From contig CANSPM010000015.1 of the NCBI GenBank assembly GCA_947648875.1, forward strand, positions 1-64,000: 64,000 nucleotides of DNA. Direction: 5' to 3'. Position 1 is the stretch's first letter, and every line of letters begins with the position of its first letter. The stretch comes from an uncultured Lachnospiraceae bacterium (GTDB taxonomy: Bacteria; Bacillota; Clostridia; Lachnospirales; Lachnospiraceae). Below the pieces are notes generated by a model. It saw only the letters and a program-made list of their open reading frames with translations, was not told where the DNA came from and did no database searches. The translations under genes were made by a program, and so were the position numbers. Of this stretch, positions 49,376 through 62,748 are shown piece after piece.

Positions 49376-50320
49376 ATGAAAGTTTTCTGTATTCTTCTGG
49401 CAGTCGCCGTCTTGCTGGCGATTGCCTTTTTCATCCTGAAATATCATATTCTAATGAATCTGGCGCTGAATGCCAGGTCAAAAAATCTGCTGTCGGCAGG
49501 GGACGCTGCGGAAATTCCGGTTGAAGAAGCCCGGGTGCGCAGACAAATCCGGGAGGACGGGGCGTGGATGGATACCCTGCCCCGGGAGGATGTGGAGATT
49601 TGGTCTCAGGACGGTCTTCGGCTGGTGGGACATTATATTCCCGCGCCGGAAGAACCCCAAAGGCTTGTGGTGCTTTTCCACGGCTGGCGTGGCAGCTGGA
49701 CAGGGGATTTTGGCAGCATGGGCAGATGGCTTCGGGAGATCGGCTGCGATCTGTTGCTGCCGGAACAGCGGGGCCAGGGAGCCAGCCAGGGGAGATACAT
49801 GGGCTTTGGCGTGCTGGAACGCAGGGATGTGGCGCAGTGGCTCCGATATTTGGATAAGGAGCGGCACAATACTCTGCCCGTGTATCTGGGCGGCGTATCC
49901 ATGGGCGCCGCCACAGTGCTGATGGCGGCCGGAGATCCCCTGCCGGACTTTGTGAGGGGCGTGCTGGCGGACTGTGGCTTTACCTGTCCCTATGAGATGC
50001 TCTATGAAGTGGGAAGGAAATCTTTGCGTATGCGGGAGCATCCGGCCATGGATTATGTGAATCTGATCATAAAGTACCGGGCGCGTTTTGGCATAAGAGA
50101 ATACTCCACGCTGGAGTCCATGAAAAAGACGAAACTGCCCATCTTCTTTGTCCATGGACTGGCAGACGACTTTGTGCCCTGGGACATGACCCGGCGGGCA
50201 TATGAAGCCTGTGCCTCCCGCAAGGAGTTGCTGCTGGTGGAGGGCGCGGGCCATGTGCGCAGCTTTTTCTGCGACTGTGATCGGTACCGGCGGAGGGTGG
50301 AAGCCTTTTTTGGGTGGTAA
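49376..50320 (+). CDS. membrane-anchored alpha/beta hydrolase
   Basis: A 314-residue protein with an N-terminal TM (VFCILLAVAVLLAIAFFILK) and an alpha/beta hydrolase domain: oxyanion region LVVLFHGWRGSWTGDF, nucleophile in YLGGVSMGAATVLMAAG, Asp in FFVHGLADDFVPWD, and His in EGAGHVRSFF. Probably an esterase or thioesterase facing outward. The ATG at 49376 follows GAGAGG; longer in-frame starts run back into the reductase gene. A short terminator follows at 50392. Confidence 0.83.
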   Translation: MKVFCILLAVAVLLAIAFFILKYHILMNLALNARSKNLLSAGDAAEIPVEEARVRRQIREDGAWMDTLPREDVEIWSQDGLRLVGHYIPAPEEPQRLVVLFHGWRGSWTGDFGSMGRWLREIGCDLLLPEQRGQGASQGRYMGFGVLERRDVAQWLRYLDKERHNTLPVYLGGVSMGAATVLMAAGDPLPDFVRGVLADCGFTCPYEMLYEVGRKSLRMREHPAMDYVNLIIKYRARFGIREYSTLESMKKTKLPIFFVHGLADDFVPWDMTRRAYEACASRKELLLVEGAGHVRSFFCDCDRYRRRVEAFFGW

Positions 50321-50339
50321 CGCACTGTGCGGCGGCGCA

Positions 50340-50368
50340 TTGCCTTCCGGCGTAAGATGTGTTACAAT
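50340..50368 (+). promoter_or_regulatory. promoter candidate
   Basis: TTGCCT (50340-50345), 17 bases, TACAAT (50363-50368). A transcript from here would run at once into the hairpin at 50392. Confidence 0.4.
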
Positions 50369-50391
50369 ATGTGCATGGGCCATGTGCCCTG

Positions 50392-50413
50392 CCGCTGCTT
50401 CACAGCGGTTTTT
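50392..50413 (+). terminator. terminator after the alpha/beta hydrolase gene
   Basis: CCGCTG (50392-50397), loop CTTCA, CAGCGG (50403-50408), then five T. Confidence 0.65.
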
Positions 50414-50489
50414 GCCGGAGAATGGCATTTCACGGCAAATAGATTTCTGACGCCCGAGGGGCAGGTTTCGGCACGGAGAGGAAACATAA

Positions 50490-50975
50490 ATGCGGCGGGA
50501 AGCGGGACGGAAAAGATGGATTGGCCTGGTGCTGATCATTATTTTGTGTCTGACAGGTGTATACGGGGCGGGCATTACGGAGAATATCCCGGTATACACC
50601 TTTTTTTCGTGTGCCGCCGAAACCGGTGAGACGGCTGCCCCCGCGAGTGGGCAGAGCGGGGAGCAGGGACTCCATGGGGTAAGCCTGCCCGTCCAGCGGC
50701 TCTGTCAGAACAGCTTTATCTGTCTGCCGGACGCGGCACGGCCCACGGAGCGGCTACAACAATCCCGACCGGATCTTCTTTCGCAGGGCAGACCGGGGAG
50801 ACGCGGTTTCCACAGATTCGCGGTGGAAACAGACGGCGCGGCTCTGGCGGAATTGCCGCAGCCTGCGGAGGGATACGGTTCCCGGGAGAACATGGGGAGA
50901 ACCGTTATCCTGTGCGGCAGCAGAATCATATCTTACATACATGACCAGGACGGTCAGAAAGATAACATTCTCTGA
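50490..50975 (+). CDS. secreted hypothetical protein, 161 aa
   Basis: ATG at 50490 with GGAGAGGAA upstream. The N-terminus is a signal-peptide-like basic and hydrophobic segment (RKRWIGLVLIIILCLTGVYG), followed by a Gln/Pro/Ala-rich region and the end ENMGRTVILCGSRIISYIHD. The family is not recognised. Oddly, a strong terminator-like hairpin (50555-50607) lies within the first third of the gene, so either the hairpin regulates it or the frame is not expressed. Confidence 0.45.
   Translation: MRREAGRKRWIGLVLIIILCLTGVYGAGITENIPVYTFFSCAAETGETAAPASGQSGEQGLHGVSLPVQRLCQNSFICLPDAARPTERLQQSRPDLLSQGRPGRRGFHRFAVETDGAALAELPQPAEGYGSRENMGRTVILCGSRIISYIHDQDGQKDNIL
50555..50607 (+). terminator. strong terminator-like hairpin inside a putative CDS
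   Basis: AGGTGTATACGGG (50555-50567) pairs with CCCGGTATACACCT (50588-50601) apart from one bulged G, followed by seven T (50601-50607). By structure it is among the best intrinsic terminators in the window. Confidence 0.7.
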
Positions 50976-51182
50976 TTCATCATACTGACAAAGGCGCGGA
51001 TTTTCCTTTCTGCCCAGCTTATGTCGCCTGGTAACGCGGCATGTACCGGACAGAAACCGGAAAATCAAATCGTTTGTCAGAATCACCCTGCCTGCGGCGG
51101 GGTATTTGGCGTTCCCGGACTTTCACTGCGGTGGAACAGGGATAAGGATGAAGTTTGTCGAAGAATGAGAGGATGGAAAAAT

Positions 51183-51332
51183 ATGTTGCAGGATCTATTT
51201 GTAGGCGTTATGTGTGTAATTGTAGCGGGAGTTGCCGTATGGGGCTGGTGGCTGGAAAACGGACCCGACCGTTCCGGGTCCGAAGAGCATGAAAAGAAGG
51301 ACCGGGAGAAAGAGGGCGACGAAAAAGGGTGA
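51183..51332 (+). CDS. small single-pass membrane protein, 49 aa
   Basis: ATG at 51183, with AGAGG ten bases upstream. One TM helix (LFVGVMCVIVAGVAVWGWWL) followed by a strongly charged tail (SEEHEKKDREKEGDEKG). A longer frame upstream has no start signals. No family known; just before the phosphonate operon promoter. Confidence 0.4.
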   Translation: MLQDLFVGVMCVIVAGVAVWGWWLENGPDRSGSEEHEKKDREKEGDEKG

Positions 51333-51398
51333 CGCGGCGATTGGCGGTTGCAGGCCGGAGACGGAGTATGTCCCCCGGATAATTTTGGAACTTCCCTG

Positions 51399-51427
51399 TT
51401 GATACTTTGCGGGAAAGTGCGTATAAT
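51399..51427 (+). promoter_or_regulatory. promoter of the phosphonate operon
   Basis: TTGATA (51399-51404), exactly 17 bases, TATAAT (51422-51427): near-perfect sigma-A promoter. Start of phnW-like gene is 66 nt downstream with GGGAGGT before it. Confidence 0.82.
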
Positions 51428-51492
51428 AAATTTGTCTTTCGAGACAGGGCACTATGATGAAGAAACCTGTAAGATGCTGACGGGAGGTCATT

Positions 51493-52638
51493 ATGAACGA
51501 ATCAATCAAGCGCAACATTCTGTTAAACCCGGGGCCGTCCACGACTACGGACACGGTAAAGATGGCACAGGTGGTGCCGGATATATGTCCCAGGGAGAAA
51601 GAGTTTGCCGCTCTGATGAAAGATCTCAGGCGAGATTTGGTGAAGATTGTCCATGGGGACCAGGAGAAATATACTTCCGTGCTTTTCTGTGGCAGCGGTA
51701 CAATCAATATCGACGTGTGTCTTAACTCTCTGCTGCCTGAAAATAAAAAGATTCTGATTGTGAATAACGGGGCCTACAGCCAGCGGGCGGTGGAAATCTG
51801 TTGTTATTACGGGTTGCCCCATATCGATTTGCAGTTTCCGGCAGATCAGCTCCCGGATCTGCAACTGGTGGAGAAGACTTTGGCGGAGAACAGGGATATC
51901 GCGCTGGTACATACCACCCACAACGAGACGGGCACAGGTATTCTGAATCCCATCAGGGAAATCGGAGAACTGGCGCACCGGTACCAGGCGGTCTTTACGG
52001 TGGACACCACTTCCACGTTGGCCATGCGTCCCATTGACATGGAGGCGGAGAACATTGATTTCTGTATGGCGTCCGCGCAGAAAGGGCTTATGGCTATGAC
52101 GGGGCTCTCCTTTATTATCGGGAACAGGGCGATTATAGAGCGGTCCAGGCTTTATCCCAGGCGTTCTTACTATTGTAATCTGTATTTACAGTATGACTGT
52201 TTTGAGAAAACGGGAGAGATGCATTTTACCCCGCCGGTTCAGACAATCTATGCCACATTGCAGGCGCTGAAAGAGTACTTCGCGGAGGGAGAGACGGAGA
52301 AATGGAACAGACACACTAGGGTTTTTAACGCCATCCATGAGGGCCTGGAGGAACTGGGTTTTCGAGACCTGATCAGGCGGGAGTGGCAGGCAGGACTGGT
52401 GGTGTCGGTGTTGTATCCGGAGGATGAGAACTGGGATTTTGAGAAAATACATGATTACTGTTATGAGAGAGGCTTTACCATCTATCCCGGGAAGGTGGCC
52501 AGGGCCAATACGTTCCGCCTGTGCGCGCTGGGGGCTATAGACGAACAGGATATCAGGGATTTCTTTGTGGTACTGCGGGAGGCGCTGCAAAAGTACCAGG
52601 TGGCGATTCCCATAAAGTATGCGGGGAGGGCGGAATAG
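51493..52638 (+). CDS. phnW: 2-aminoethylphosphonate aminotransferase-like enzyme (PhnW family)
   Basis: A 381-residue PLP-dependent class V aminotransferase. KRNILLNPGPSTTTDTVKMA and DICPREKEF at the start are PhnW-type; the cofactor Lys is in MASAQKGLMAMTGLSF, preceded by VFTVDTTSTLAMRPID. In biosynthesis it aminates phosphonoacetaldehyde to 2-aminoethylphosphonate; in catabolism it runs in reverse. The adjacent pepM and ppd genes and lack of a phosphonatase (PhnX) indicate the biosynthetic direction here. First gene of the operon, three bases before pepM. Confidence 0.88.
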   Translation: MNESIKRNILLNPGPSTTTDTVKMAQVVPDICPREKEFAALMKDLRRDLVKIVHGDQEKYTSVLFCGSGTINIDVCLNSLLPENKKILIVNNGAYSQRAVEICCYYGLPHIDLQFPADQLPDLQLVEKTLAENRDIALVHTTHNETGTGILNPIREIGELAHRYQAVFTVDTTSTLAMRPIDMEAENIDFCMASAQKGLMAMTGLSFIIGNRAIIERSRLYPRRSYYCNLYLQYDCFEKTGEMHFTPPVQTIYATLQALKEYFAEGETEKWNRHTRVFNAIHEGLEELGFRDLIRREWQAGLVVSVLYPEDENWDFEKIHDYCYERGFTIYPGKVARANTFRLCALGAIDEQDIRDFFVVLREALQKYQVAIPIKYAGRAE

Positions 52639-52641
52639 AGA

Positions 52642-53937
52642 ATGAAGACGGTATACACTTGTTTTTGCACGGATGTGATTCATGAAGGACATCGGAATAT
52701 TATCAGGAAAGCACAGGAGTACGGGGAAGTGATCGTGGGAGTCCTAAGCGACCGCGCCATGATTCGCTTTAACCGTTTTCCCACGATTTCCTTTGAGGAG
52801 AGAGTACAGATTGTCAGGGAGACAGAGGGCGTAAGCCGGGTGGTGGTGCAGGATGAGATCTCCTATGATGAAGTGATCCGACAGATTCATCCGGACTATG
52901 TGATTCATGGGGACAACTGGGTAAGCGGTCCCTTGAAGGCGGTGAGGGACCGGGTGGAGGCCGCCCTGAGAGAATATGGCGGGGAGATTATAGATGTGCC
53001 GTATACGTACAATGAGAATGTGAAGAGGATAGATGCCCGCATCCGGGAAAAAGTGGGTATGCCGGAGTATCGAAGGAAGCGTCTGCGGCGTCTGCTGTCC
53101 CTGTGTCCCATTGTCAAGACCCTGGAGGTGCACAGCGGGCTGACGGGGCTGATCGCAGAAAAGACGATTGTGGAGCGGGGCGGGGAACTGGATCAGTTTG
53201 ACGCCATGTGGGTGAGTTCCCTGTGCGACTCCACCGCCAAAGGCAAGCCGGATATTGAACTGGTGGATATGACGTCCCGTTTCAGAACCATAGATGATAT
53301 TATGGAAGTGACAACAAAACCCATAATCTTTGACGGCGATACGGGCGGACTGATCGAACACTTTGTGTATACGGTGCGGACGCTGGAGCGGATGGGTGTC
53401 TCGGCGATTATCATCGAGGATAAGACAGGCCTTAAAAGAAATTCGCTGTTTGGGACAGAGGTTTCCCAGACCCAGGACACCATAGAGCATTTCTGTGAGA
53501 AAATCGCGGCGGGCAAGAGGACGCAGCTCACGGATGCCTTTATGATTATCGCAAGAATCGAGAGTCTGATTTTGGAGCAGGGCATGGAGGATGCCCTGGC
53601 GCGCGCCAGGGCCTATGTGGGAGCCGGCGCGGACGGAATCATGATACACAGCCGCAGGAAGGACCCTGCGGAGATTCTCACATTCTGCGATTTATTCCGG
53701 CAGGAAGACCGGAAGACCCCTATTGTGGTGGTGCCCACCTCTTTCAACTCTGTCACGGAGGAGGAACTTATGGCGCATGGGGTCAATATTGTGATCTATG
53801 CCAATCAGCTGACCAGAAGCGCGTTTCCCGCCATGCAGCAGACGGCGGTGGACATTCTGAAAAATCATCGCGCCCGAGAGGTGGATGAGCGGCTGATGCC
53901 CATCAGCGAAATTCTCACGTTGATCGACGAGTTATAA
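52642..53937 (+). CDS. pepM: phosphoenolpyruvate mutase with N-terminal cytidylyltransferase-like domain
   Basis: A 431-residue fusion. Residues 1-135 are a nucleotidyltransferase-like domain (CFCTDVIHEGHRNIIRKAQE with HxGH-type HEGH; ISFEERV). Residues about 140-431 are the isocitrate lyase/PEP mutase barrel: FDAMWVSSLCDSTAKGKPD, FDGDTGG with the metal-binding Asp, and IIEDKTGLKRNSLFG, the mutase EDKxxxKxNS motif. It converts PEP to phosphonopyruvate, the committed step of phosphonate biosynthesis. This two-domain form is known from other bacteria. Next gene ppd draws the unfavourable equilibrium forward. Confidence 0.92.
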   Translation: MKTVYTCFCTDVIHEGHRNIIRKAQEYGEVIVGVLSDRAMIRFNRFPTISFEERVQIVRETEGVSRVVVQDEISYDEVIRQIHPDYVIHGDNWVSGPLKAVRDRVEAALREYGGEIIDVPYTYNENVKRIDARIREKVGMPEYRRKRLRRLLSLCPIVKTLEVHSGLTGLIAEKTIVERGGELDQFDAMWVSSLCDSTAKGKPDIELVDMTSRFRTIDDIMEVTTKPIIFDGDTGGLIEHFVYTVRTLERMGVSAIIIEDKTGLKRNSLFGTEVSQTQDTIEHFCEKIAAGKRTQLTDAFMIIARIESLILEQGMEDALARARAYVGAGADGIMIHSRRKDPAEILTFCDLFRQEDRKTPIVVVPTSFNSVTEEELMAHGVNIVIYANQLTRSAFPAMQQTAVDILKNHRAREVDERLMPISEILTLIDEL

Positions 53938-53985
53938 CGCGCTTTTGCAGGCGAAGCCTGCGCGTGTACAGGCGGGGAAATATAA

Positions 53986-54699
53986 ATGGAATATGCAATC
54001 ATTATGGCATCGGGAATGGGAACCAGAATGCGGCCACTGACGGAAAAGACGCCCAAGCCCCTGATACCGGTAAACGGCATCCCCATGATTGAAACGGTCA
54101 TTCAGGGACTGCAAAGAAGAAAAATAGAACGAATTTATATAGTGGTGGGCTATCTCAGGGAGCAATTTGGCTATCTGGAGGAAAAATACGGCAATGTGAG
54201 CCTGCTGGAAAATGAAGACTATCAATGGGTGAATAATATATCTTCCATATACAGGGCTTCCTCTGTATTGGGAATGGGGGATTGCTTTATCTGTGAGGCG
54301 GATCTGTACATCGCCGCTCCCCAAATATTTGACGCGGTCATGGAGACATCCTGCTATTTCGGGAAATATGTGGAAGGATATTCCGAAGACTGGCTGTTTC
54401 AGCGAGACGGGGAAGGATACATTGCCCGTGTGGGAAAAGGCGGGGAGAATTGCTATAATATGGTAGGCATCTCCTATTTCCGGCAGGCGGACTGTGTGAT
54501 TCTGAGGGATGCCATAGAGAGGGCTTACAAAACGGCGGGATATGAGAAGCTGTTCTGGGACGAAGTGGTGGACCGCAATCTGGACAAACTCAGGCTTTTC
54601 GTGCATCCCGTGGAAGAGGGGCAGATCTTTGAGATTGACACGGTGGAGGAACTTGACAGACTGAACAGGGGATGGCGCTCAAGAGGAGGAAAGAATTGA
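53986..54699 (+). CDS. sugar-phosphate/phosphonate nucleotidyltransferase (PntC/LicC-like)
   Basis: A 237-residue nucleotidyltransferase: IIMASGMGTRMRPLTEKTPK and PLIPVNGIPMIETVI at the start, the NTP-binding Rossmann pattern; NISSIYRASSVLGMGDCFIC and EADLY give the metal-binding Asp. The NNISSIY block resembles LicC-type choline-phosphate cytidylyltransferases and the PntC enzymes that make CMP-AEP. In this operon CMP-aminoethylphosphonate is the likely product. Its stop overlaps the TTG start of ppd (TTGA), showing coupled translation. Confidence 0.85.
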   Translation: MEYAIIMASGMGTRMRPLTEKTPKPLIPVNGIPMIETVIQGLQRRKIERIYIVVGYLREQFGYLEEKYGNVSLLENEDYQWVNNISSIYRASSVLGMGDCFICEADLYIAAPQIFDAVMETSCYFGKYVEGYSEDWLFQRDGEGYIARVGKGGENCYNMVGISYFRQADCVILRDAIERAYKTAGYEKLFWDEVVDRNLDKLRLFVHPVEEGQIFEIDTVEELDRLNRGWRSRGGKN

Positions 54700-55820
54700 A
54701 AGCGGAAAAGTTTGTGGAAATTATAGGGGCGGATTTCTATACGGGAGTGCCGGACTCGCAGTTGAAGGCGTTGTGCGATTATTTGATGAAACGCTATGGA
54801 ATAGACCCGGCACATCATTTGATTGCCGCCAATGAAGGAAACTGCGCCGCCATTGCGGCGGGCTATCATCTGGCCACCGGAAAGATCCCGGTGGTGTACA
54901 TGCAGAACAGCGGGGAAGGAAATATAATCAACCCGGTGGCTTCGCTGTTAAATGATAAAGTATACGCAATTCCGGTTATATTTGTCGTTGGATGGCGGGG
55001 GGAGCCGGGCGTACATGACGAGCCCCAGCATATCTACCAGGGGGAGGTCACGCTCAGGCTGCTGGAGGATATGGATATCCGCACTTTTGTCGTGGGAAAA
55101 GAGACTGCGGAGGAGGAACTGAAGCTGGCGCTGGAGGAATTGCAAAGGGATCTTTCCGCAGGGAAAAGTATAGCCCTGGTGGTGCGCAAGGGCGCTCTGT
55201 CCTTTGACGGGGAGATGCCATATGGCAATGACTGCGCCATGACGCGGGAGGAGATTATCCGGCATATCGCCGCAACGGCGGGGGAAAATCCCATTGTTTG
55301 CACCACCGGGAAGGCAAGCAGAGAGTTGTTTGAAATCAGAGCGGCCAATGGGCAGAGCCATAAATATGATTTCCTGACGGTGGGGTCCATGGGGCACAGC
55401 TCTTCTATCGCTCTTGGGATTGCGGCAAATAAGCCGGACACAAAAATCTGGTGTATCGACGGGGACGGCGCCGTATTGATGCATATGGGCGCCATGGCTG
55501 TGATCGGGGCCAATCGCCCGAAAAATCTGGTACATGTGGTGATAAACAATGGAGCCCATGAAACCGTGGGCGGAATGCCCACGGTGGCAGGCGGAATAGA
55601 TCTGCCCGCCATCGCCAGAGCCTGCGGTTATCCCTGGGCCGTTTCTGTGGACAGCTTCGAGGAACTGGACCGGGAACTTGCCGCTGCGGCGGGGCGGGAG
55701 GCCCTGACTCTCATAGAGGCCAGAAGCGCCATAGGGGCGCGGGCGAATCTGGGACGTCCCACCACCAGCGCCGCGCAGAACAAGGCCGCATTTATGGAGT
55801 ACCTGGCAGATCTGCCATAG
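54696..55820 (+). CDS. ppd: phosphonopyruvate decarboxylase
   Basis: A 374-residue thiamine-diphosphate enzyme. FYTGVPDSQLKALCDYLM, the catalytic Glu in AANEGNCAAIAAGYHLATG, YMQNSGEGNIINPVASLLND and VGWRGEPGVHDEPQH are hallmark Ppd motifs; the ThDP fold GDG...N appears as CIDGDGAVLMHMG and VVINNGAHETVGG. It decarboxylates phosphonopyruvate to phosphonoacetaldehyde. The TTG at 54696 with AGGAGG eight bases upstream gives the usual length; an in-frame ATG at 54672 would overlap the previous gene more. Confidence 0.92.
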   Translation: MKAEKFVEIIGADFYTGVPDSQLKALCDYLMKRYGIDPAHHLIAANEGNCAAIAAGYHLATGKIPVVYMQNSGEGNIINPVASLLNDKVYAIPVIFVVGWRGEPGVHDEPQHIYQGEVTLRLLEDMDIRTFVVGKETAEEELKLALEELQRDLSAGKSIALVVRKGALSFDGEMPYGNDCAMTREEIIRHIAATAGENPIVCTTGKASRELFEIRAANGQSHKYDFLTVGSMGHSSSIALGIAANKPDTKIWCIDGDGAVLMHMGAMAVIGANRPKNLVHVVINNGAHETVGGMPTVAGGIDLPAIARACGYPWAVSVDSFEELDRELAAAAGREALTLIEARSAIGARANLGRPTTSAAQNKAAFMEYLADLP

Positions 55821-55956
55821 ATCTGCCCACCGTCTATCTCAAAACCTGGATGTGAGGGCGGATTTGATTGTATGCTTATGCATTGGCGCAAAGCTACAGC
55901 CGCGCTTGCGTTACGCAGAAAGGGGTAAGTCTGGAAACAGCAGGAATCGGGTGAAT

Positions 55957-57654
55957 ATGAAGAAATTTGGATTGTCATTTCTAAATGTGTTTTTACTTAC
56001 GTTTATGTTGCTGATATTTGGTCCGGCAGAAATATTCTTTGCCAATGCCACAGAGTTTGAATTTGTCTACGGAGAATTTGCGGGATATCTGGCTGCGGCG
56101 GCACTGGGAGCGGCTGCGGTGGGGGGCGGTCTGCTGACAGTCTTGCCGGACAGGCTGTATCGGTTGACCATGTCCGTGACCTTTGGCGTTTCGGCGGCAG
56201 GATATCTCCAGGTGATGCTTTTAAACCGCAAGCTGGATCTGCTGGGGCTGAACCCGGAGGGCTATCAGGTGGACCCGGGCGTGGCTCTGGGCAATCTCTG
56301 CGTCTGGCTGTTGGTCATTTCCGGGATTATTGTACTGGCTTTTGTCAAAAAAGAGATCTGGAAGAGCCTGGTAAAGTACGGCGCGGCATTTTTGCTCTGT
56401 ATTCAGGCCGTAGCCCTTGTGTCTCTGCTGGTCACAGCCAGAGAGGACGCGTATCATCACAAGACACAGGAATGGCATCTCACAGGAGAAGAGCAATATG
56501 CGGTGTCCGCCAGGGAGAATGTGATTCTGATTATTCTGGACTATTTCAGCAATCAGGACCTGGTGGAGGTGCAGGCAGCGTATCCGGATGTGATGGATTG
56601 TCTGCATGATTTTACCTATTATAATAACACGGACTGCAATTACTATGGCACTTTTCCCTCCATTACACATATGCTCACGGGCAAGGAGGTGGACGCCTCC
56701 ATACCTGTCAACGAGTGGTTTTATAACGTGTGGACGGACCCGGATACCATTGCTTTCTACGAAGCGTTGCGGGAAAGGGACTATGTGGTTAATTTGTACA
56801 GTCCGGATACCCATCATCTGTGCGGAACCAATGATGTGGAGATTTTCAGAACCTGTTTCTCCAATGTGACCAATTCCTCCAGAAAAGTGGATGTATTTTA
56901 CAAGCTGCTGTTTAAAACCATAACCAAGATGTCCTGTTACCGGATGATGCCGGAGATGCTGAAAAACGTATTTTATACGGAAGGTTCGGAATACGCAGAT
57001 ATTATTGCCTATGAAGACGATATCATCAACCACAATAATGCGGATTTTTACAGGGGGCTGCTGGAGAACGGCCTGACTGTGGACAAGCATTCCAAGTATT
57101 TCATAATACAGCATCTGCTGGGGACGCACGAGTATACCACCACGGCGGATTGTATGCAGAGTCCCAAGTCCACTCTGGAAGATACGGCAAGGGGCTGCAT
57201 GGTCATGGTGGAAGAGTATCTCAATCAGCTGAAACAGATTGGCGCGTATGACAATTCGACGATTATAGTAACCTCGGATCACGGAGATATGGTGGATTCC
57301 CAGGTGATCTTTTACATTAAGGAACCGGGCATCACAAGGGAGAGTGCAGCGGTAACAAATGCCCCCATTTCGCTGTGTGAACTGCGCCCTACGATAGCGC
57401 AGGCGGCCGGGCTGGACGGCGCCCGGTTTGGGCGGACAATTTATGAATTTGCCGAGAACGAGCAGAGAGAGCGGCAGGTCTGGGTCCGGGATTCGGATGT
57501 TCGTTACACCATCGTTCAAAACTATGTCGAGGACAGGATTGGCTATGCCAATATCTATAAGGTTTATAAGTATATAGGAGATTATGACGATCTGCTTTCA
57601 CAGATTGAGCAGGAGCAATACGAAGTGGTGCAGATGGTGGATTCCTTCTTTTAG
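55957..57654 (+). CDS. membrane sulfatase/alkaline-phosphatase superfamily protein (LtaS-like transferase candidate)
   Basis: A 565-residue protein with about five N-terminal TM helices (to about residue 160) and a large extracellular catalytic domain. NVILIILDYFSNQDL carries the first metal-binding Asp, YYGTFPSITHMLTG the Thr/Ser nucleophile region, and IIVTSDHGDM the Asp-His pair. The layout resembles LtaS-type phosphoglycerol and phosphoethanolamine transferases. In this operon it could transfer or trim an aminoethylphosphonate-bearing group at the cell surface; this is inference. ATG at 55957 chosen over a longer frame because it begins directly before TM1. Confidence 0.75.
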   Translation: MKKFGLSFLNVFLLTFMLLIFGPAEIFFANATEFEFVYGEFAGYLAAAALGAAAVGGGLLTVLPDRLYRLTMSVTFGVSAAGYLQVMLLNRKLDLLGLNPEGYQVDPGVALGNLCVWLLVISGIIVLAFVKKEIWKSLVKYGAAFLLCIQAVALVSLLVTAREDAYHHKTQEWHLTGEEQYAVSARENVILIILDYFSNQDLVEVQAAYPDVMDCLHDFTYYNNTDCNYYGTFPSITHMLTGKEVDASIPVNEWFYNVWTDPDTIAFYEALRERDYVVNLYSPDTHHLCGTNDVEIFRTCFSNVTNSSRKVDVFYKLLFKTITKMSCYRMMPEMLKNVFYTEGSEYADIIAYEDDIINHNNADFYRGLLENGLTVDKHSKYFIIQHLLGTHEYTTTADCMQSPKSTLEDTARGCMVMVEEYLNQLKQIGAYDNSTIIVTSDHGDMVDSQVIFYIKEPGITRESAAVTNAPISLCELRPTIAQAAGLDGARFGRTIYEFAENEQRERQVWVRDSDVRYTIVQNYVEDRIGYANIYKVYKYIGDYDDLLSQIEQEQYEVVQMVDSFF

Positions 57655-57740
57655 ATTCCCCGGGGCTTTTTGGGGCAATGAAATATAGGGACGGCTGCCA
57701 CTGTGTGGTGGAGCAGGCGCGGCGCTGGCCAGAAAAATAT

Positions 57741-57769
57741 TTGCAATCATATCGCACATGATATATAAT
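57741..57769 (+). promoter_or_regulatory. internal promoter of the phosphonate locus
   Basis: TTGCAA (57741-57746), 17 bases, TATAAT (57764-57769), in the 181-nt gap before the small membrane protein gene. It allows the last two genes to be expressed apart from the AEP-making enzymes. Confidence 0.62.
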
Positions 57770-57835
57770 AACAAATATTTCAAAGTCATTTAGATTTGTA
57801 CATGCCGAAAGGCGGGAAAGGCGAGGTTATTCAAT

Positions 57836-58090
57836 ATGAGGAAATCAGTTGGCAGGGCGTTTTCTTTTGTGTATTTTTTCAGTTGCTTTTATACATTGTT
57901 CACTCTTCCGGTGCACGCGTATATTGACCCTTCTGCGGTGACGTATATTATCCAGGCGGTGGCGGGTGTGCTGATCGCGTTGGGCGCGGCCCTTACCATT
58001 TTCCGCCACAAGATCTTTAAGTTTTTCCGGGGCAAGAAGAAAGACAAAGAGGAAGAGAGCAAGATAGAGTTTAAGGATGTGCAGGAATAA
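57836..58090 (+). CDS. small membrane protein of the phosphonate locus
   Basis: An 84-residue protein: a signal-like helix (FSFVYFFSCFYTLFTLPVHA), then AYIDPSAVTYIIQAVAGVLI and a second helix, then a cationic and acidic tail (FRGKKKDKEEESKIEF). Small proteins with a YIDP motif and two helices occur beside surface-polymer genes in Firmicutes, a loose association from memory. No enzymatic motif. It precedes the YidC-fusion gene by 84 nt. Confidence 0.7.
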   Translation: MRKSVGRAFSFVYFFSCFYTLFTLPVHAYIDPSAVTYIIQAVAGVLIALGAALTIFRHKIFKFFRGKKKDKEEESKIEFKDVQE

Positions 58091-58174
58091 GAGCGGAAGA
58101 AAGAGCGCCAGGCCCTGGAGGAAGAATGGGAAAAGCGCGTGGGGATACACAGAGGAAAGGCAGGAAGAAGACAA

Positions 58175-60046
58175 TTGAGTGAGATAACAGTCAAAATAGT
58201 GGATGCTTTGGCGGCCCTGATCGGCGGGTGCTATGCGCTGTGTCATAATTATTGGATTGCCATTTTTCTTTTTACGGTTTTGACGAAAGTGATTTTGCTG
58301 CCCCTGTCTGTGTGGATACAGAAAAATTCCATAAAGACCGTAAAGATGGAGCCCGAACTCAACCACATCAAAGCTGTGTACGCAGGCAATCAGGAACTGA
58401 TATCCGAGGAACAATACAAACTGTTTAAGCGGGAAAAATACAGTCCCTTCGGTGATCTGATCCCTCTGTTTGTACAGCTGGCGCTGCTCATGGGCGTGGT
58501 GGAGGCGGTGAAGAAGGGGACACCCCTTACCGTCATTCCCGTTGAGGCGCTGGGAGTGACACTGCTGATTCCGGCGGTGGCGGCGGCGTCCGCGTTTGTG
58601 ATGTGCTTTGTGCAGAATAAGATCAATGTATTACAGTCCGAACAGGGGGCGCTGAACCAGTACGGAACCATGATCTTTTCCGTGGGACTGTCTCTGTACC
58701 TGGGGTTCTTCGTGTCCGTCGGAGTGGGATTTTACTGGATTTGTAGTAATCTTTTGTCCACTTTACAGCTGGCGCTGCTGAATGTCTGGATCAATCCTAA
58801 AGACTATATTGATTATGAGGCTCTTGAGAAAAGCAAGGAGGAACTCAGAGAGGCCAGGGCCTTTATGACGGACCGAAAGAAGCAGGGGCGTACCAATCCT
58901 TACCGCAAAAAGGAGAAAGCAGATTATAAGCGCTTTTTGTCCGGACAGAGAAAAAAACTGGTTTTTTACTCGGAGAAAAACGGGTTCTATAAATACTATA
59001 AGAATATCATAGAAGAGATAATCCGCCGGACCAATGTCGTGGTGCATTATATCACCAGCGATCCGGAGGATGAGGTATTTTCCCTGGAAAGCGAGCAGTT
59101 CGTACCCTACTATATCGGGGAAAACAGACTGATTGTGCTGCTGATGAAACTGGAGGCCGATGTGATGGTGATGACCACGCCGGATCTGGAGAATTTCCAG
59201 TTGAAGCGCTCCTATGTGAAGAAAGATGTGGAGTATATCTATGTGCCCCATGATGTGAACAGTTCCAATCTGACGTTCCATAAGGATGCGCTGGATCACT
59301 TTGACACGATCTTTGTGTCCGGTGCGCAGAACAGAGCGGAGATACGGGAGCGGGAGGAAAAGAACGGGCTGCCCTCCAAGAATCTGGTGGAATGGGGCTC
59401 CAGCGTCATCGACAATATGGCGGCGGCCTATGAGGAGACGGAGAGGGAAAAGGCCCGGGAGAGTGGGGACAGAAAGACTGTTCTGATCGCTCCCTCCTGG
59501 CAGAAAGATAATATTATGGACTCCTGCATAGAGAGATTACTGGACGCGTTAAAGGGCGGAGGCTACCGGGTGGTGGTGCGCCCTCATCCTCAGTATGTGC
59601 GCCATTTTGAGGAGAAAATTGACCGTCTGGCCCGGAAATATGCCGGGGAGGGTGTGGAGGTACAGAAAGATTTTTCCTCCAACAGGACAGTGTATGAGGC
59701 GGACGTGCTGGTGACGGACTGGTCCAGCATCGCTTTCGAATATGCCTTTTCCACCCTGAAACCGGTGTTGTTTATCAATACGCCCATGAAGGTAGTGAAC
59801 CCGGACTATCAGGAATTGCAGACCAGGCCCATAGACCTGGTATTGCGGGATAAGGTGGGGATCTCTCTGAACCTGGAGCATCTGGAGCAGGTAGGCCTGT
59901 CTGTCCGCTCCCTGCTCTGCGATAACCAGTTTTCCGGAGAGTCCCTTGCGGCGCTGCGGGATGCGTATATCTACAATGTGGGCCACAGCGGTGAGGTTGG
60001 GGCAAAGTATATCATACAGCGGCTGGTGGAAATACAGCAGAGCTGA
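58175..60046 (+). CDS. YidC/Oxa1-like domain fused to CDP-glycerol glycerophosphotransferase-like domain
   Basis: A 623-residue fusion. Residues about 1-200 match YidC/Oxa1: FLFTVLTKVILLPLSVWIQK (Lys where YidC has the conserved Arg), MEPELNHIKAVYAGN, YKLFKREKYSPFGDLIPLFV, and later TM helices ending FYWICSNLLSTLQLALLN. From about 260 a TagF-like glycosyl/phosphopolyol transferase domain follows: KKLVFYSEKNGFYKYYKNII, YIYVPHDVNSSNL, VLIAPSWQKDN, YRVVVRPHPQYVRHF and VLVTDWSSIAFEYAFS, KPVLFINTP. I infer that the second domain uses a CDP/CMP-activated donor, possibly CMP-AEP, at the inner face of the membrane. TTG at 58175 with AGGAAGAAG upstream is preferred; the frame is open to 58139. Confidence 0.82.
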   Translation: MSEITVKIVDALAALIGGCYALCHNYWIAIFLFTVLTKVILLPLSVWIQKNSIKTVKMEPELNHIKAVYAGNQELISEEQYKLFKREKYSPFGDLIPLFVQLALLMGVVEAVKKGTPLTVIPVEALGVTLLIPAVAAASAFVMCFVQNKINVLQSEQGALNQYGTMIFSVGLSLYLGFFVSVGVGFYWICSNLLSTLQLALLNVWINPKDYIDYEALEKSKEELREARAFMTDRKKQGRTNPYRKKEKADYKRFLSGQRKKLVFYSEKNGFYKYYKNIIEEIIRRTNVVVHYITSDPEDEVFSLESEQFVPYYIGENRLIVLLMKLEADVMVMTTPDLENFQLKRSYVKKDVEYIYVPHDVNSSNLTFHKDALDHFDTIFVSGAQNRAEIREREEKNGLPSKNLVEWGSSVIDNMAAAYEETEREKARESGDRKTVLIAPSWQKDNIMDSCIERLLDALKGGGYRVVVRPHPQYVRHFEEKIDRLARKYAGEGVEVQKDFSSNRTVYEADVLVTDWSSIAFEYAFSTLKPVLFINTPMKVVNPDYQELQTRPIDLVLRDKVGISLNLEHLEQVGLSVRSLLCDNQFSGESLAALRDAYIYNVGHSGEVGAKYIIQRLVEIQQS

Positions 60047-60112
60047 AAGTTGTTCTATAAAAATACCATAAATTCTATGAAATTTTTATGATTTCTATAG
60101 ACGAACAGGGAA

Positions 60113-60157
60113 GCCGGGGGTAAAATGATTTCCAGATATTTTACCTCCGCCTTTTTT
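60113..60157 (+). terminator. terminator of the phosphonate operon
   Basis: GCCGGGGGTAAAAT (60113-60126) pairs with ATTTTACCTCCGCC (60138-60151), 14 positions with one mismatch and one G-U, 11-base loop, then six T. Confidence 0.88.
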
Positions 60158-60268
60158 GTGTCGCAGGGGCGATGGGGGATGAAACAGGGCGCAATAACTA
60201 TATGCGCATATTTTCGGGACGGAAAATTGATACATAGAAACAGCGGCACGGAAATGAGGAGCTTTGCT

Positions 60269-62044
60269 ATGAAGTCTGTTGGAAAGTGGATTAAGAAGCA
60301 TAAGAAGCTGTGCGTCTTTCTGGTGATTGTCCTTATTTTGGGGATTCTCATCGGAAAGTTCGTAAGCAGTGTGCAGAAAGCGGCACAGACCATGATGACC
60401 ATGCTGACCCAGCAGGAGACGGCGGCTATAGAGCGGCGTTCTCTGGTGGAGAGCGTCTCGGCCACGGGTTTTGTCACCAGCGCGGGCAGCAGGAACGTGT
60501 CGGCGGAGGTGACGGGGGTGAAGTCTCTGAGCGTGCCGGTGCAGGTGGGCGATCTGGTGGAGGCGGGAGATTTGCTGTGCCTGTTTGATACATCGGATCT
60601 GGAGGAGAATCTGGCCGACGCGGAACTTACTCTGAGCGTGGCCCAGAGGAGAACGCAGCTTGATCTGGATTCTGCGGAACGGAGTCTGGCGGAGGCGGGG
60701 ATATCCGTCCAGGTGGATATGTCCCGGATGGAGGAGCAGGTGGCCAGCGCATTGAGAAGTTATGAGGAAGCCAGGGAGACCATGAACAGGGCGGGGTCCA
60801 GCTATGGCAATGCCAACCACAACAGCGCGGAGATACGGAAAGCCCTGGAAGGATATCAGGCGCAGCTGGCCGGGGTACATGAGCAGTTAAGCGGACAGCC
60901 TGATTCCGCCGGTTCCAATGCCGCTGCGTCCGTGTCCGGCGGAGATGTGGGCACTACCGACAGGGAGGCGCTGGAAGCGGAGGCCCGGCGGCTGGAACAG
61001 TTGATCACGGAATACCAGATGAAATACAGCACGGCCCAGGAGACGGAGCGGGGACTGAAATCCGCCTACGACCAGGCGGTGACGGCGGTGAACAACGCCT
61101 ACGATGCCTACAACCGACAGCTCCAGAGCCAGGAGGATACCATTCGAAACGGCGGCAGCACTTTACAGAGCAGGCAGGATGGCGTGACCTCCAGCCGGTT
61201 AAACGCCTCCACTTCGGGAATGAGCGATCAGCAGCAGATTGACCGGTATCAGGAACAGATTGCCGCCTGTAGGGTGACGTCGCCCACTTCCGGGGTGGTG
61301 ACGGCAGTGAACCTGGAGACGGGAGACAGCTATAACGGCGGCGCTATAGTGACCATCGAGGATATCAGCAGCTATGAAGTGACTGTGGAGATCGACGAGT
61401 ATGATATCAGCAAGATCAGGGAGGGGCAGAGGGTGGCGATCAAGACCAACGGCACCGGGGATCTGGAACTGGAGGGGAAAGTGCTCTCCATCGCGCCCCG
61501 GGCCACCGGAGGGACCAGCGTGACATACACGGTGAAAGTCAGCATCGACACGCCCTGTGAGGATCTGCGCATGGACATGACCGCCAAGCTGAGTATTATC
61601 ATCAGCAGCAAGGAAAATGTACTGACAGTGCCCTACGCCGCCGTGCAGACCGCAGAGGACGGCAGCTTCTATGTGGAAGTGGTGGAGGAAAACGCCGGGG
61701 AAGCCGGCGGAGATCATCAGTCCGCAGATCAGGGGCAGCCGGACGGAAACGGTCAGCCTGCGGATCAGGGGCAGCCGGACGGAAACGGTCAGCCTATGGG
61801 CCAGGGGCGGCCGGGCGGAAACGGGCAGCCGGGTCTGCCCGCCGCGTCCGGCGGCAATGCCGCTATGCCGGGCACCTTACCCACCAGGTGCGTTCCGGTG
61901 ACCAAGGGCATTGAGAGCGATTACTATGTGGAGATTTCCGGAGAAGGGATTGTGGAGGGCCTGGAGGTTATCGTGCCTGCGGATAACAGTCTGGATAACC
62001 TGAATGATCTGATGTTACAGATGGGCCCCATGGGAGGATTTTGA
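60269..62044 (+). CDS. HlyD/MacA-like periplasmic adaptor (membrane fusion) protein
   Basis: A 591-residue protein: N-terminal TM (LCVFLVIVLILGILIGKFVS), first lipoyl half ESVSATGFVTSAGSRNVSAE with VQVGDLVEAGDLLCLFDTSD, a long coiled-coil region (about 105-320) with a Ser/Gly insert, second lipoyl half VTSPTSGVVTAVNLETGDSY, then beta-barrel KIREGQRVAIKTNG. Near the end there is a Gln/Gly/Pro repeat (36-bp units). It should link to the MacB-like ABC transporter directly downstream. GAGGAG sets the ATG at 60269; earlier in-frame starts overlap the terminator at 60113-60157. Confidence 0.87.
   Translation: MKSVGKWIKKHKKLCVFLVIVLILGILIGKFVSSVQKAAQTMMTMLTQQETAAIERRSLVESVSATGFVTSAGSRNVSAEVTGVKSLSVPVQVGDLVEAGDLLCLFDTSDLEENLADAELTLSVAQRRTQLDLDSAERSLAEAGISVQVDMSRMEEQVASALRSYEEARETMNRAGSSYGNANHNSAEIRKALEGYQAQLAGVHEQLSGQPDSAGSNAAASVSGGDVGTTDREALEAEARRLEQLITEYQMKYSTAQETERGLKSAYDQAVTAVNNAYDAYNRQLQSQEDTIRNGGSTLQSRQDGVTSSRLNASTSGMSDQQQIDRYQEQIAACRVTSPTSGVVTAVNLETGDSYNGGAIVTIEDISSYEVTVEIDEYDISKIREGQRVAIKTNGTGDLELEGKVLSIAPRATGGTSVTYTVKVSIDTPCEDLRMDMTAKLSIIISSKENVLTVPYAAVQTAEDGSFYVEVVEENAGEAGGDHQSADQGQPDGNGQPADQGQPDGNGQPMGQGRPGGNGQPGLPAASGGNAAMPGTLPTRCVPVTKGIESDYYVEISGEGIVEGLEVIVPADNSLDNLNDLMLQMGPMGGF
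61724..61831 (+). repeat. 36-bp in-frame tandem repeat, three copies
   Basis: Units begin at 61724, 61760 and 61796 and encode variants of ADQGQPDGNGQP. The first two differ by one base or so; the third has drifted (MGQGRPGGNGQP). It lies in the loop between the adaptor's barrel and its last strands. Confidence 0.88.
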
Positions 62045-62748
62045 TGAGCAGACGGGCGGTGATCGAGCTGGAAGAAATCTATAAGCGTTTTTATATTGGG
62101 ACGCCCAATGAGCTTACGGTGTTAAACGGCATCAATCTGACCATTTACGAAGGAGAATTTGTGGCCGTGGTGGGGGCTTCCGGCAGCGGCAAGTCCACGC
62201 TTATGAACATCATCGGCGCGTTGGACCGGCCCACCCAGGGCCGGTATCATCTGGACGGTGTGGATATGGTAGCGGCCAAAGACCGGGAATTGTCCGGCAT
62301 CCGAAACCGCAAGATCGGCTTTGTGTTCCAGACTTATAATCTGATTGCCAAAACCAATGCCCTGAAAAATGTGGAGATGCCCATGCTCTACGGGGGTGTC
62401 ACGGGCAAAAAACGGGTGGACCGGGCCAAGGAATTGCTGACCATGGTGGGCATGGAAGACCGCATGAAGCATCTGCCGGAGGAACTCTCCGGCGGGCAGA
62501 AGCAGCGTGTGGCCATCGCAAGGGCCATGGGAAACGACCCTGCTATCATTCTGGCAGATGAGCCCACCGGAGCGCTGGACTCAGGCACCGGGCGTATGGT
62601 GATGGATCTGTTCCACAAACTGCATAAAGAGCAGGGAAAGACCATTGTGCTGATCACCCATTCTCCGGAACTGGCGGAGGAGACGGAGCGGGTAGTCACC
62701 ATCAAGGACGGCTGTATCATCGGGGAAAGGCAGGGAACTTGCGTATGA
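62044..62748 (+). CDS. MacB-like ABC transporter ATP-binding protein
   Basis: A 234-residue ATPase: Walker A GASGSGKSTLMN, Q-loop FVFQTYNLIAKTN, signature LSGGQKQRVAIARAM, Walker B IILADEPTGALD, H-loop LITHSPELA. This is the LolD/MacB type, in which the ATPase works with an extracytoplasmic-domain permease. ATG at 62044 overlaps the stop of the adaptor gene (TGATG), and its own stop overlaps the permease start. Confidence 0.92.
   Translation: MSRRAVIELEEIYKRFYIGTPNELTVLNGINLTIYEGEFVAVVGASGSGKSTLMNIIGALDRPTQGRYHLDGVDMVAAKDRELSGIRNRKIGFVFQTYNLIAKTNALKNVEMPMLYGGVTGKKRVDRAKELLTMVGMEDRMKHLPEELSGGQKQRVAIARAMGNDPAIILADEPTGALDSGTGRMVMDLFHKLHKEQGKTIVLITHSPELAEETERVVTIKDGCIIGERQGTCV

Follow-up and report, generated by a model that had tools for sequence, protein, structure and literature searches.

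In the Pnt pathways of phosphonate tailoring (Rice et al. 2019, PMC6697681), the Ppm, Ppd and AEPT enzymes that make 2-aminoethylphosphonate (AEP) are widely accompanied by a PF12804 cytidylyltransferase, Ppm-PF01467 fusions are likewise widespread, and a surface destination has been proposed. According to that paper, PF12804 is the fusion partner of Ppm in 33.0% and PF01467 in 23.6% of cases, and cytidylyltransferases preferring AEP are described. The neighbours named there are LicD-like phosphotransferases or glycosyltransferases, and what follows AEP in the tailoring was described in that paper as unknown. AEP is carried by a capsule of Bacteroides fragilis (PMC12413058), and in Clostridioides difficile it is attached to an N-acetylglucosamine (GlcNAc) of the type A flagellin glycan (cd0240-cd0244; PMC8861647). 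Here, we analyse a seven-gene operon in a 64,000-nucleotide stretch of DNA, hereafter the window (positions 1 to 64,000 of contig CANSPM010000015.1, assembly GCA_947648875.1), from an uncultured Lachnospiraceae bacterium. Its AEP synthesis and activation with cytidine monophosphate (CMP) are known chemistry; the new element is its transfer part, composed of a sulfatase-superfamily membrane protein, a small membrane protein and a fusion of YidC with a Glyphos transferase.

We regard the operon as a variant of phosphonyl tailoring whose transfer machine may be of a kind of its own. It shares Ppm/Ppd/AEPT, the PF12804 cytidylyltransferase and the Ppm-PF01467 fusion with the Pnt pathways, whereas the words 'YidC', 'sulfatase' and 'glycerophosphotransferase' are absent from the main text of PMC6697681, and the transfer machine found here is not described there. 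In C. difficile, AEP is an extra group, as the GlcNAc retains its phospho-N-methylthreonine, and the acceptor is a protein-bound sugar (PMC8861647). The same article gives C. difficile as negative for PepM, and its portions covering the AEP glycan contain no YidC or sulfatase part. That glycan was dropped as a precedent for headgroup exchange because AEP sits beside the phospho-amino acid. In the open-access literature, subscription journals being mostly outside this scope, no recognisable paper on YidC-Glyphos or YidC-sulfatase fusions was found, nor any open-access paper dealing with Lachnospiraceae, phosphonate and pepM together.

The seven genes are in the order phnW-pepM-NTP-ppd-sulfatase-YIDP-(YidC-Glyphos), all on the + strand, with intergenic gaps of 3, 48, -28, 136, 181 and 48 bp (sulfatase start taken as 55957). 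Scores are followed by their cut-offs.

51493..52638, + strand: PhnW/AepZ-type 2-aminoethylphosphonate aminotransferase, 381 amino acids (aa); TIGR03301 459.7 bits (360.8); SAQK lysine context.
52642..53937, + strand: PepM, phosphoenolpyruvate (PEP) mutase, as a CTP_transf_like-PepM fusion, 431 aa; TIGR02320 412.7 (319.55), PF01467 50.3 (21).
53986..54699, + strand: PntC/LicC-like cytidylyltransferase (MobA/LicC-like NTP transferase), 237 aa; PF12804 48.2 (27).
54672..55820, + strand: phosphonopyruvate decarboxylase Ppd, 382 aa; TIGR03297 446 (312.5); thiamine pyrophosphate motif.
55957..57654, + strand: membrane protein of the sulfatase superfamily (alkaline phosphatase fold), presumed headgroup transferase; Pfam Sulfatase 21.1, below the cut-off (25).
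57836..58090, + strand: small membrane 'YIDP' protein, 84 aa; AxA-like site, YIDPSxxTY..Q motif and one transmembrane helix.
58139..60046, + strand: fusion of YidC (about residues 1-230) with a TagF/TagB-type Glyphos transferase (about 265-635), 635 aa; PF02096 91.2 (35), PF04464 47.7 (22.1).

The original prediction of a seven-gene operon with a complete AEP pathway agrees with these family scores and with the intact motifs. The gene list stood, the order had to be corrected to phnW-pepM-NTP-ppd, and the N-terminal CTP_transf_like domain of PepM had gone unmentioned. PepM, Ppd and PhnW all exceed curated equivalog cut-offs, and the PepM fusion harbours the PepM motif EDKTGLKRNS as well as HEGH (HxGH). 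As in the Pnt pathways, a PepM with EDKxxxxxNS thus stands together with Ppd and an AEP aminotransferase, and a nucleotidyltransferase is present both fused to PepM (PF01467) and in the next gene (PF12804). The latter has the GxGxRxxP motif; its nearest solved structure is LicC (1jyk, E 1.5e-36), followed by PntC (6pd1, E 1.7e-9), in line with the CMP-activating enzyme that had been predicted. Unlike in Lic-type decoration, no LicD (PF04991) was matched down to E 0.01 in the eight window proteins scanned. PhnJ of C-P lyase has no match in the genome, and the phosphonatase model gave five genome matches, all under its cut-off (best 55 of 220 bits); the matches in the 14 control genomes were all under it too. 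No phosphonatase or C-P lyase had been seen in the locus, and none was found in the genome at these cut-offs; a catabolic reading was rejected, and the locus looks anabolic.

From the enzymes, motifs and folds read in the sequences, together with the domain re-partitioning, the genome co-occurrence and the headgroup-tracking residue described below, we infer a lipid acceptor, a membrane crossing, an outer transfer and a glycan target. We propose an anabolic surface-tailoring operon, a scheme to which, as a whole, we give an even chance. PepM, Ppd and PhnW would convert PEP to AEP, and CMP-AEP would be made by the PntC/LicC-like enzyme, to which the CTP_transf_like domain of PepM may contribute. 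The cytosolic Glyphos domain would use CMP-AEP to load AEP onto an acceptor in the membrane, which would most likely be a lipid carrier. TagF, TagB and TarL are poly(glycerophosphate/ribitol) transferases that form a polymer from CDP-glycerol or CDP-ribitol, whereas CMP-AEP, the donor here, would be unable to polymerise; since AEP has no hydroxyl, a single addition is expected rather than a polymer. The fused YidC domain would anchor the transferase at the membrane and give the charged lipid a route to the outer leaflet. Outside, the sulfatase-fold enzyme would load AEP on its invariant Thr and hand it to a surface glycan, to be compared with LtaS and the phosphoethanolamine transferases. The YIDP protein, its motif probably on the outer face, would link the parts, and the same machine would serve other CMP-activated headgroups in related loci.

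The steps of this scheme differ in strength. Glyphos is very probably the CMP-AEP transferase. A lipid is the slightly favoured acceptor, because no glycosyltransferase family is found among the domain matches of the operon proteins and because the outer enzyme with which the cytosolic transferase forms a pair has a fold shared by some enzymes that use lipid donors. That the AEP-lipid crosses through the YidC domain comes a little short of an even chance; it is suggested by the scrambling of lipids by Escherichia coli YidC in vitro (PMC10491306, a preprint) and by the separate recruitment of YidC to either enzyme. YidC is also mentioned as a presumed scramblase in PMC7618853, a paper in which the words 'fusion' and 'fused' do not occur.

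The last three genes form a machine of their own, the domains of which are re-partitioned among chains. In an even sample of 250 genomes of the family (Glyphos matches listed down to E 2.3e-6), the YidC-Glyphos fusion occurs in ten genomes among the matches listed, the copies of G051 and G216 being at contig ends. A YidC-sulfatase fusion is encoded in 12 genomes (at most three first-look candidates scored per genome, cut-off 1e-30), and its partner is a separate Glyphos protein opening with the YIDP motif and a transmembrane helix. This YIDP-Glyphos protein was found in 11 of the 12 YidC-sulfatase genomes and, among the matches listed, in none other of the 250 (p 2.5e-18). The motif was read in the loci of all 11, and the aligned ends of the two partners are <1 kb apart in ten of them. 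G493, a further family genome, has the pair twice, and in G565, outside the family, pepM, ppd, phnW and the NTP transferase gene lie between its members. Locus L253 codes for a single-chain YIDP-sulfatase adjoining YidC-Glyphos, and in L147 one 1241-aa open reading frame (ORF) comprises YidC, Glyphos and sulfatase (Pfam E 5e-28, 6.4e-11 and 1.4e-6). Five of the six possible pairs of the four domains are thus found within one chain, the YIDP part being defined by motif and placement. In locus L174 (10010-11950), where pepM and further AEP genes adjoin the fusion, the latter is split, its two ORFs measuring 140 and 518 aa.

The YidC domain of the window fusion exceeds the 60KD_IMP (PF02096) cut-off and its predicted fold is a complete YidC core, although it scores under the NCBIfam yidC_oxa1_cterm cut-off (78.8 vs 84.3 bits). 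The Glyphos domain, above the PF04464 gathering score, has a predicted glycosyltransferase-B fold like TagF/TarL. The YidC domain could have stayed an insertase or chaperone, as its score and complete core would allow, assisting the folding or assembly of the multi-helix sulfatase or of the YIDP protein with no handling of lipids. We deem this very improbable, as the genome has another yidC and as YidC is fused to a cytosolic enzyme in one type and to an extracellular one in the other. Sharing domain and fold with YidC/Oxa1 insertases, it is here the partner of two headgroup enzymes.

The YIDP protein has no Pfam or NCBIfam match down to E 0.01. Its core Y, D, P, S, T, Y and Q residues do not vary in any of the 68 relatives encoded next to the fusion, and its gene lies at most 500 bp from the fusion in 42 of the 49 loci with full flanks. 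The YIDP profile had zero matches in 21 control pepM regions lacking YidC-Glyphos (two of which, L085 and L086, overlap). Homology with the N-terminus of YIDP-Glyphos is unproven (hhalign 50% over 17 columns); what the two have in common is a motif and a placement. A signal peptidase I-like (S26) gene is found near the machine in 15 of the 80 loci analysed below (BLAST label, with Pfam for L065; e.g. L065 11942-12427 and L066 8996-9481), and its product might cut the YIDP protein ahead of the motif.

The longest ORF of the sulfatase gene begins at 55852, and the alignment of relatives suggests a start at 55957. The predicted fold, with N-terminal membrane helices, resembles sulfatases, YejM, LtaP and LtaS, and some relatives exceed the Pfam Sulfatase gathering score (e.g. 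L253, 52.4 vs 25). Thr267, Asp230, His421, His426, Asp476 and His477 (long-ORF numbering) are invariant in 29 of 29 relatives; carrying over the roles from LtaS, we take Thr267 to be the nucleophile and the Asp and His residues to bind metal. LtaS and phosphoethanolamine transferases, which take the headgroup from a lipid donor onto Thr, share the alkaline-phosphatase-superfamily fold, the N-terminal membrane helices and the conserved Thr, Asp and His. Unlike them, the enzyme here has a headgroup transferase of its own in the cytosol and is in some cases fused to YidC; a lipid donor would thus be made to order.

The genome of the window has a second sulfatase of this family (L269 7242-9827, on G000:C17; 861 aa, with a DUF7024-like stretch). 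Its neighbours, which make up a surface-polysaccharide cluster, are a mannose-1-phosphate-guanylyltransferase-like gene and genes for a GDP-mannose dehydratase, an acyltransferase, a polysaccharide flippase and a glycosyltransferase. Several sulfatases occur per genome, with five in G135, at least five in G190 and ten in G652; other copies, in G135, lie among housekeeping genes and are uninformative. A natural reading is that one donor serves several outer transferases whose targets are surface glycans. These copies, some of which are in surface-polysaccharide clusters, better fit acceptor-specific transferases than an enzyme that removes headgroups. They thus argue against a phosphonolipid as the end product, in which case Glyphos would make AEP-diacylglycerol or an AEP-glycolipid and the sulfatase-fold protein would edit or remove headgroups outside. 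Consistent with such a product are the lack of glycan genes in the operon, the single-addition chemistry and a sulfatase fold just as close to hydrolases, but we find it quite improbable.

Sulfatase and fusion also co-occur in genomes. A profile (A3) was built from fusion-adjacent sulfatases, so that only absence from genomes with neither YidC fusion is a free test; at most five first-look candidates per genome were scored, with a cut-off of 1e-15. At that threshold the family was found in 16 of the 250 genomes, namely nine of the ten with YidC-Glyphos (the miss, G051, has a contig end near the fusion), seven of the 11 further ones with YidC-sulfatase and 0/229 with neither (Fisher p 1.7e-15). 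Of the 49 full-flank loci, 32 have a sulfatase of this family inside the flanks fetched, and a single one of the 21 control pepM regions has a member of the family, a YidC-sulfatase. This confinement to machine genomes among the 250 searched bears on a one-step decoration, in which Glyphos would add AEP to a lipid-linked glycan or teichoic-type precursor in the cytosol and an ordinary flippase would export it. YidC would then be a mere anchor, and the sulfatase-fold protein would do a neighbouring job, e.g. adding another group. LicD and TagB act on the cytosolic face, and both the TagF/TarL fold and the LicD genes of other pepM loci (L078, L080) fit that logic, as does a Glyphos protein without YidC in G622, YidC possibly serving as an anchor only. 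Considering the sulfatase distribution, the two different partners (Glyphos or the sulfatase) to which YidC is fused depending on the type, and the same lack of glycosyltransferase matches, we regard one-step decoration as rather unlikely.

The genes supplying the headgroup vary. In the 80 named loci, which are the best 80 of at least 508 relatives and whose pepM share is hence biased toward the window, we found 45 with PepM, 14 with an NTP-transferase/Aminotran_1_2 fusion, three with an NTP-choline-kinase fusion and four with an NTP transferase alone. The labels for PepM, Aminotran and choline kinase come from BLAST, with Pfam confirmation for examples only. Fourteen loci have none of these genes, some of the contigs being short, and no locus has both PepM and the Aminotran fusion. 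In the even family sample, pepM is beside the fusion in three of the ten fusion genomes. The Aminotran half of L063 is nearest to a threonine-phosphate-decarboxylase-like structure (6oux, E 3.9e-37), with a CobD-type decarboxylase (1lc5) third, and the Aminotran fusion may supply an amino-alcohol phosphate, an ester twin of AEP. The fusions of L063, L064, L065 and L094 are candidate one-chain sources of an amino alcohol activated with cytidine diphosphate. The NTP-choline-kinase proteins of L252 (14892-16784), L166 (11858-13633) and L099 (7512-9284) have a winged-helix or MarR-type domain at the N-terminus, which is unusual in an enzyme and possibly serves self-regulation. At a contig end in L080 (8282-9064), a second, partial pepM directly adjoins a whole pepM operon.

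The fusion tree requires at least eight changes of supply label, and its well-supported branches force six for the AEP label. This is a quick tree with Shimodaira-Hasegawa-like approximate likelihood-ratio support only, made from 79 rows (the window and 78 of the 80 loci, with fusion ORFs of 591-659 aa and without L147 and L174), 17 of them unlabelled. In G493, one machine shares an operon with AEP genes, and the other lies 4 to 6 kb from genes for an NTP transferase and an NTP-choline-kinase protein. Given these label changes and the two machines of G493, the machine is, as far as sequences tell, a portable headgroup platform, AEP being one of several loads. Of the original prediction, the surface-transfer role of the last three genes is supported, pepM being present in 45 of the 80 loci, and the AEP specificity is not. 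Against the condition set beforehand, that these genes be conserved with pepM, the outcome is mixed: they are kept with one another, but not exclusively with pepM.

A residue of the Glyphos domain follows these supply genes. The window fusion has HD at positions 371-372 where the ordinary TagF-like Glyphos protein of the same genome has HG (TWHG); the His of this HG motif is, we presume, the catalytic residue of TagF. His371 aligns with the TWHG His and three motifs line up, though the overall alignment probability is low (14%). Compared with TagF, TagB and TarL (PF04464), the domain is thus fused to YidC and has Asp in place of Gly after the presumed catalytic His. Residue 372 is Gly in 14 of 14 Aminotran and three of three choline-kinase loci. 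It is non-Gly in 44 of 45 pepM loci (D 35, A 5, E 2, S 1, Y 1), the sole exception being L178, the pepM of which is about 5.7 kb from the fusion; the 17 unlabelled rows have 12 non-Gly and five Gly. Path-disjoint contrasts gave five with the label, none against and one without difference, and column 372 is the only one among 512 varying columns with five for and none against. These data are a strong lead, short of proof, that residue 372 follows the supply genes and would tie the Glyphos domain to the activated headgroup.

Several observations weigh against the proposed scheme. The sign test on the five contrasts gives p 0.0625, for a column chosen by scanning, and no residue-372 pattern was seen in the YIDP-Glyphos type. 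As many as 17 of the 49 full-flank loci have no family sulfatase within about 10 kb; 16 of these genomes carry one elsewhere, and G658, with a choline-kinase locus, has none. In G004, YidC-sulfatase and YIDP-Glyphos are unpaired, on separate contigs. Fold scores fail to separate sulfatases from LtaS. The YidC groove residue, tried as a mark of lost insertase function, was dropped as uninformative, since it is Lys in nine of nine YidC-Glyphos and Asn in nine of nine YidC-sulfatase proteins and also varies among ordinary YidCs (Asn, Lys, Arg or Tyr in the ten read by eye). The YidC domains of YidC-Glyphos and YidC-sulfatase proteins do not group in one clade, which points to convergent recruitment and not to one inherited machine; a single origin was rejected (approximately unbiased test, p 0.0015) with only 11 ordinary YidCs, among them the odd L026, possibly of another lineage, and with long branches. 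G622 has pepM, ppd, phnW, NTP and Glyphos genes and two PF00884 proteins with no YidC part, so YidC would be a refinement rather than a must in such systems. The G622 locus itself (L248 4694-13724), in which a PepM-NTP fusion and the YidC-less Glyphos are followed by the two PF00884 proteins, possibly represents an earlier stage of the machine.

We tentatively extend the proposed scheme, with somewhat less confidence than in the scheme itself, to a general trans-membrane headgroup relay. It would consist of a cytosolic CMP-headgroup transferase, a YidC-family domain repurposed as the charged lipid's own scramblase and an outer sulfatase-fold transferase tied by YIDP, with YidC domains recruited at least twice and several outer transferases per donor. 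Its swappable supply cassettes would be those for AEP, perhaps a phosphoserine- or phosphothreonine-derived amine, and choline or ethanolamine.

The limits of the operon are marked by the following signals.

51399..51427, + strand: sigma-70-like promoter TTGATA-17-TATAAT, 11 of 12 matches, top hit of 49500-62500.
57741..57769, + strand: possible internal promoter TTGCAA-17-TATAAT, 10 of 12 matches, between the sulfatase and YIDP genes (181-bp gap).
60110..60157, + strand: intrinsic terminator, hairpin and T-run, from folding (z -4.33, 60047-60160) and sequence.

The promoter scan is weak by itself (24 hits vs 10.7 expected). A simple terminator scan listed no + strand terminator at the 3' end of the operon; folding did reveal the hairpin. 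One promoter and one terminator had been predicted: the strong hairpin supports the terminator, and the site at 57741-57769 makes a single promoter uncertain. Past the terminator, 60125-62748 comprises a HlyD-type gene, identified with Pfam, and an ORF that by eye resembles an ABC ATPase; together they look like an unrelated export set.

With this operon, AEP tailoring gains a concrete transferase, a position in its active site that is predicted to read the headgroup, and a possible way over the membrane. If the proposed scheme is true, the relay would be the transfer step that surface tailoring with AEP has so far lacked, and the lipid scrambling of YidC seen in vitro would gain a physiological setting with a defined job. 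AEP would then be a charged surface group of common gut commensals, and the exchange of cassettes would explain how gut Lachnospiraceae could furnish their surface with groups of the phosphonate, ethanolamine or choline type.

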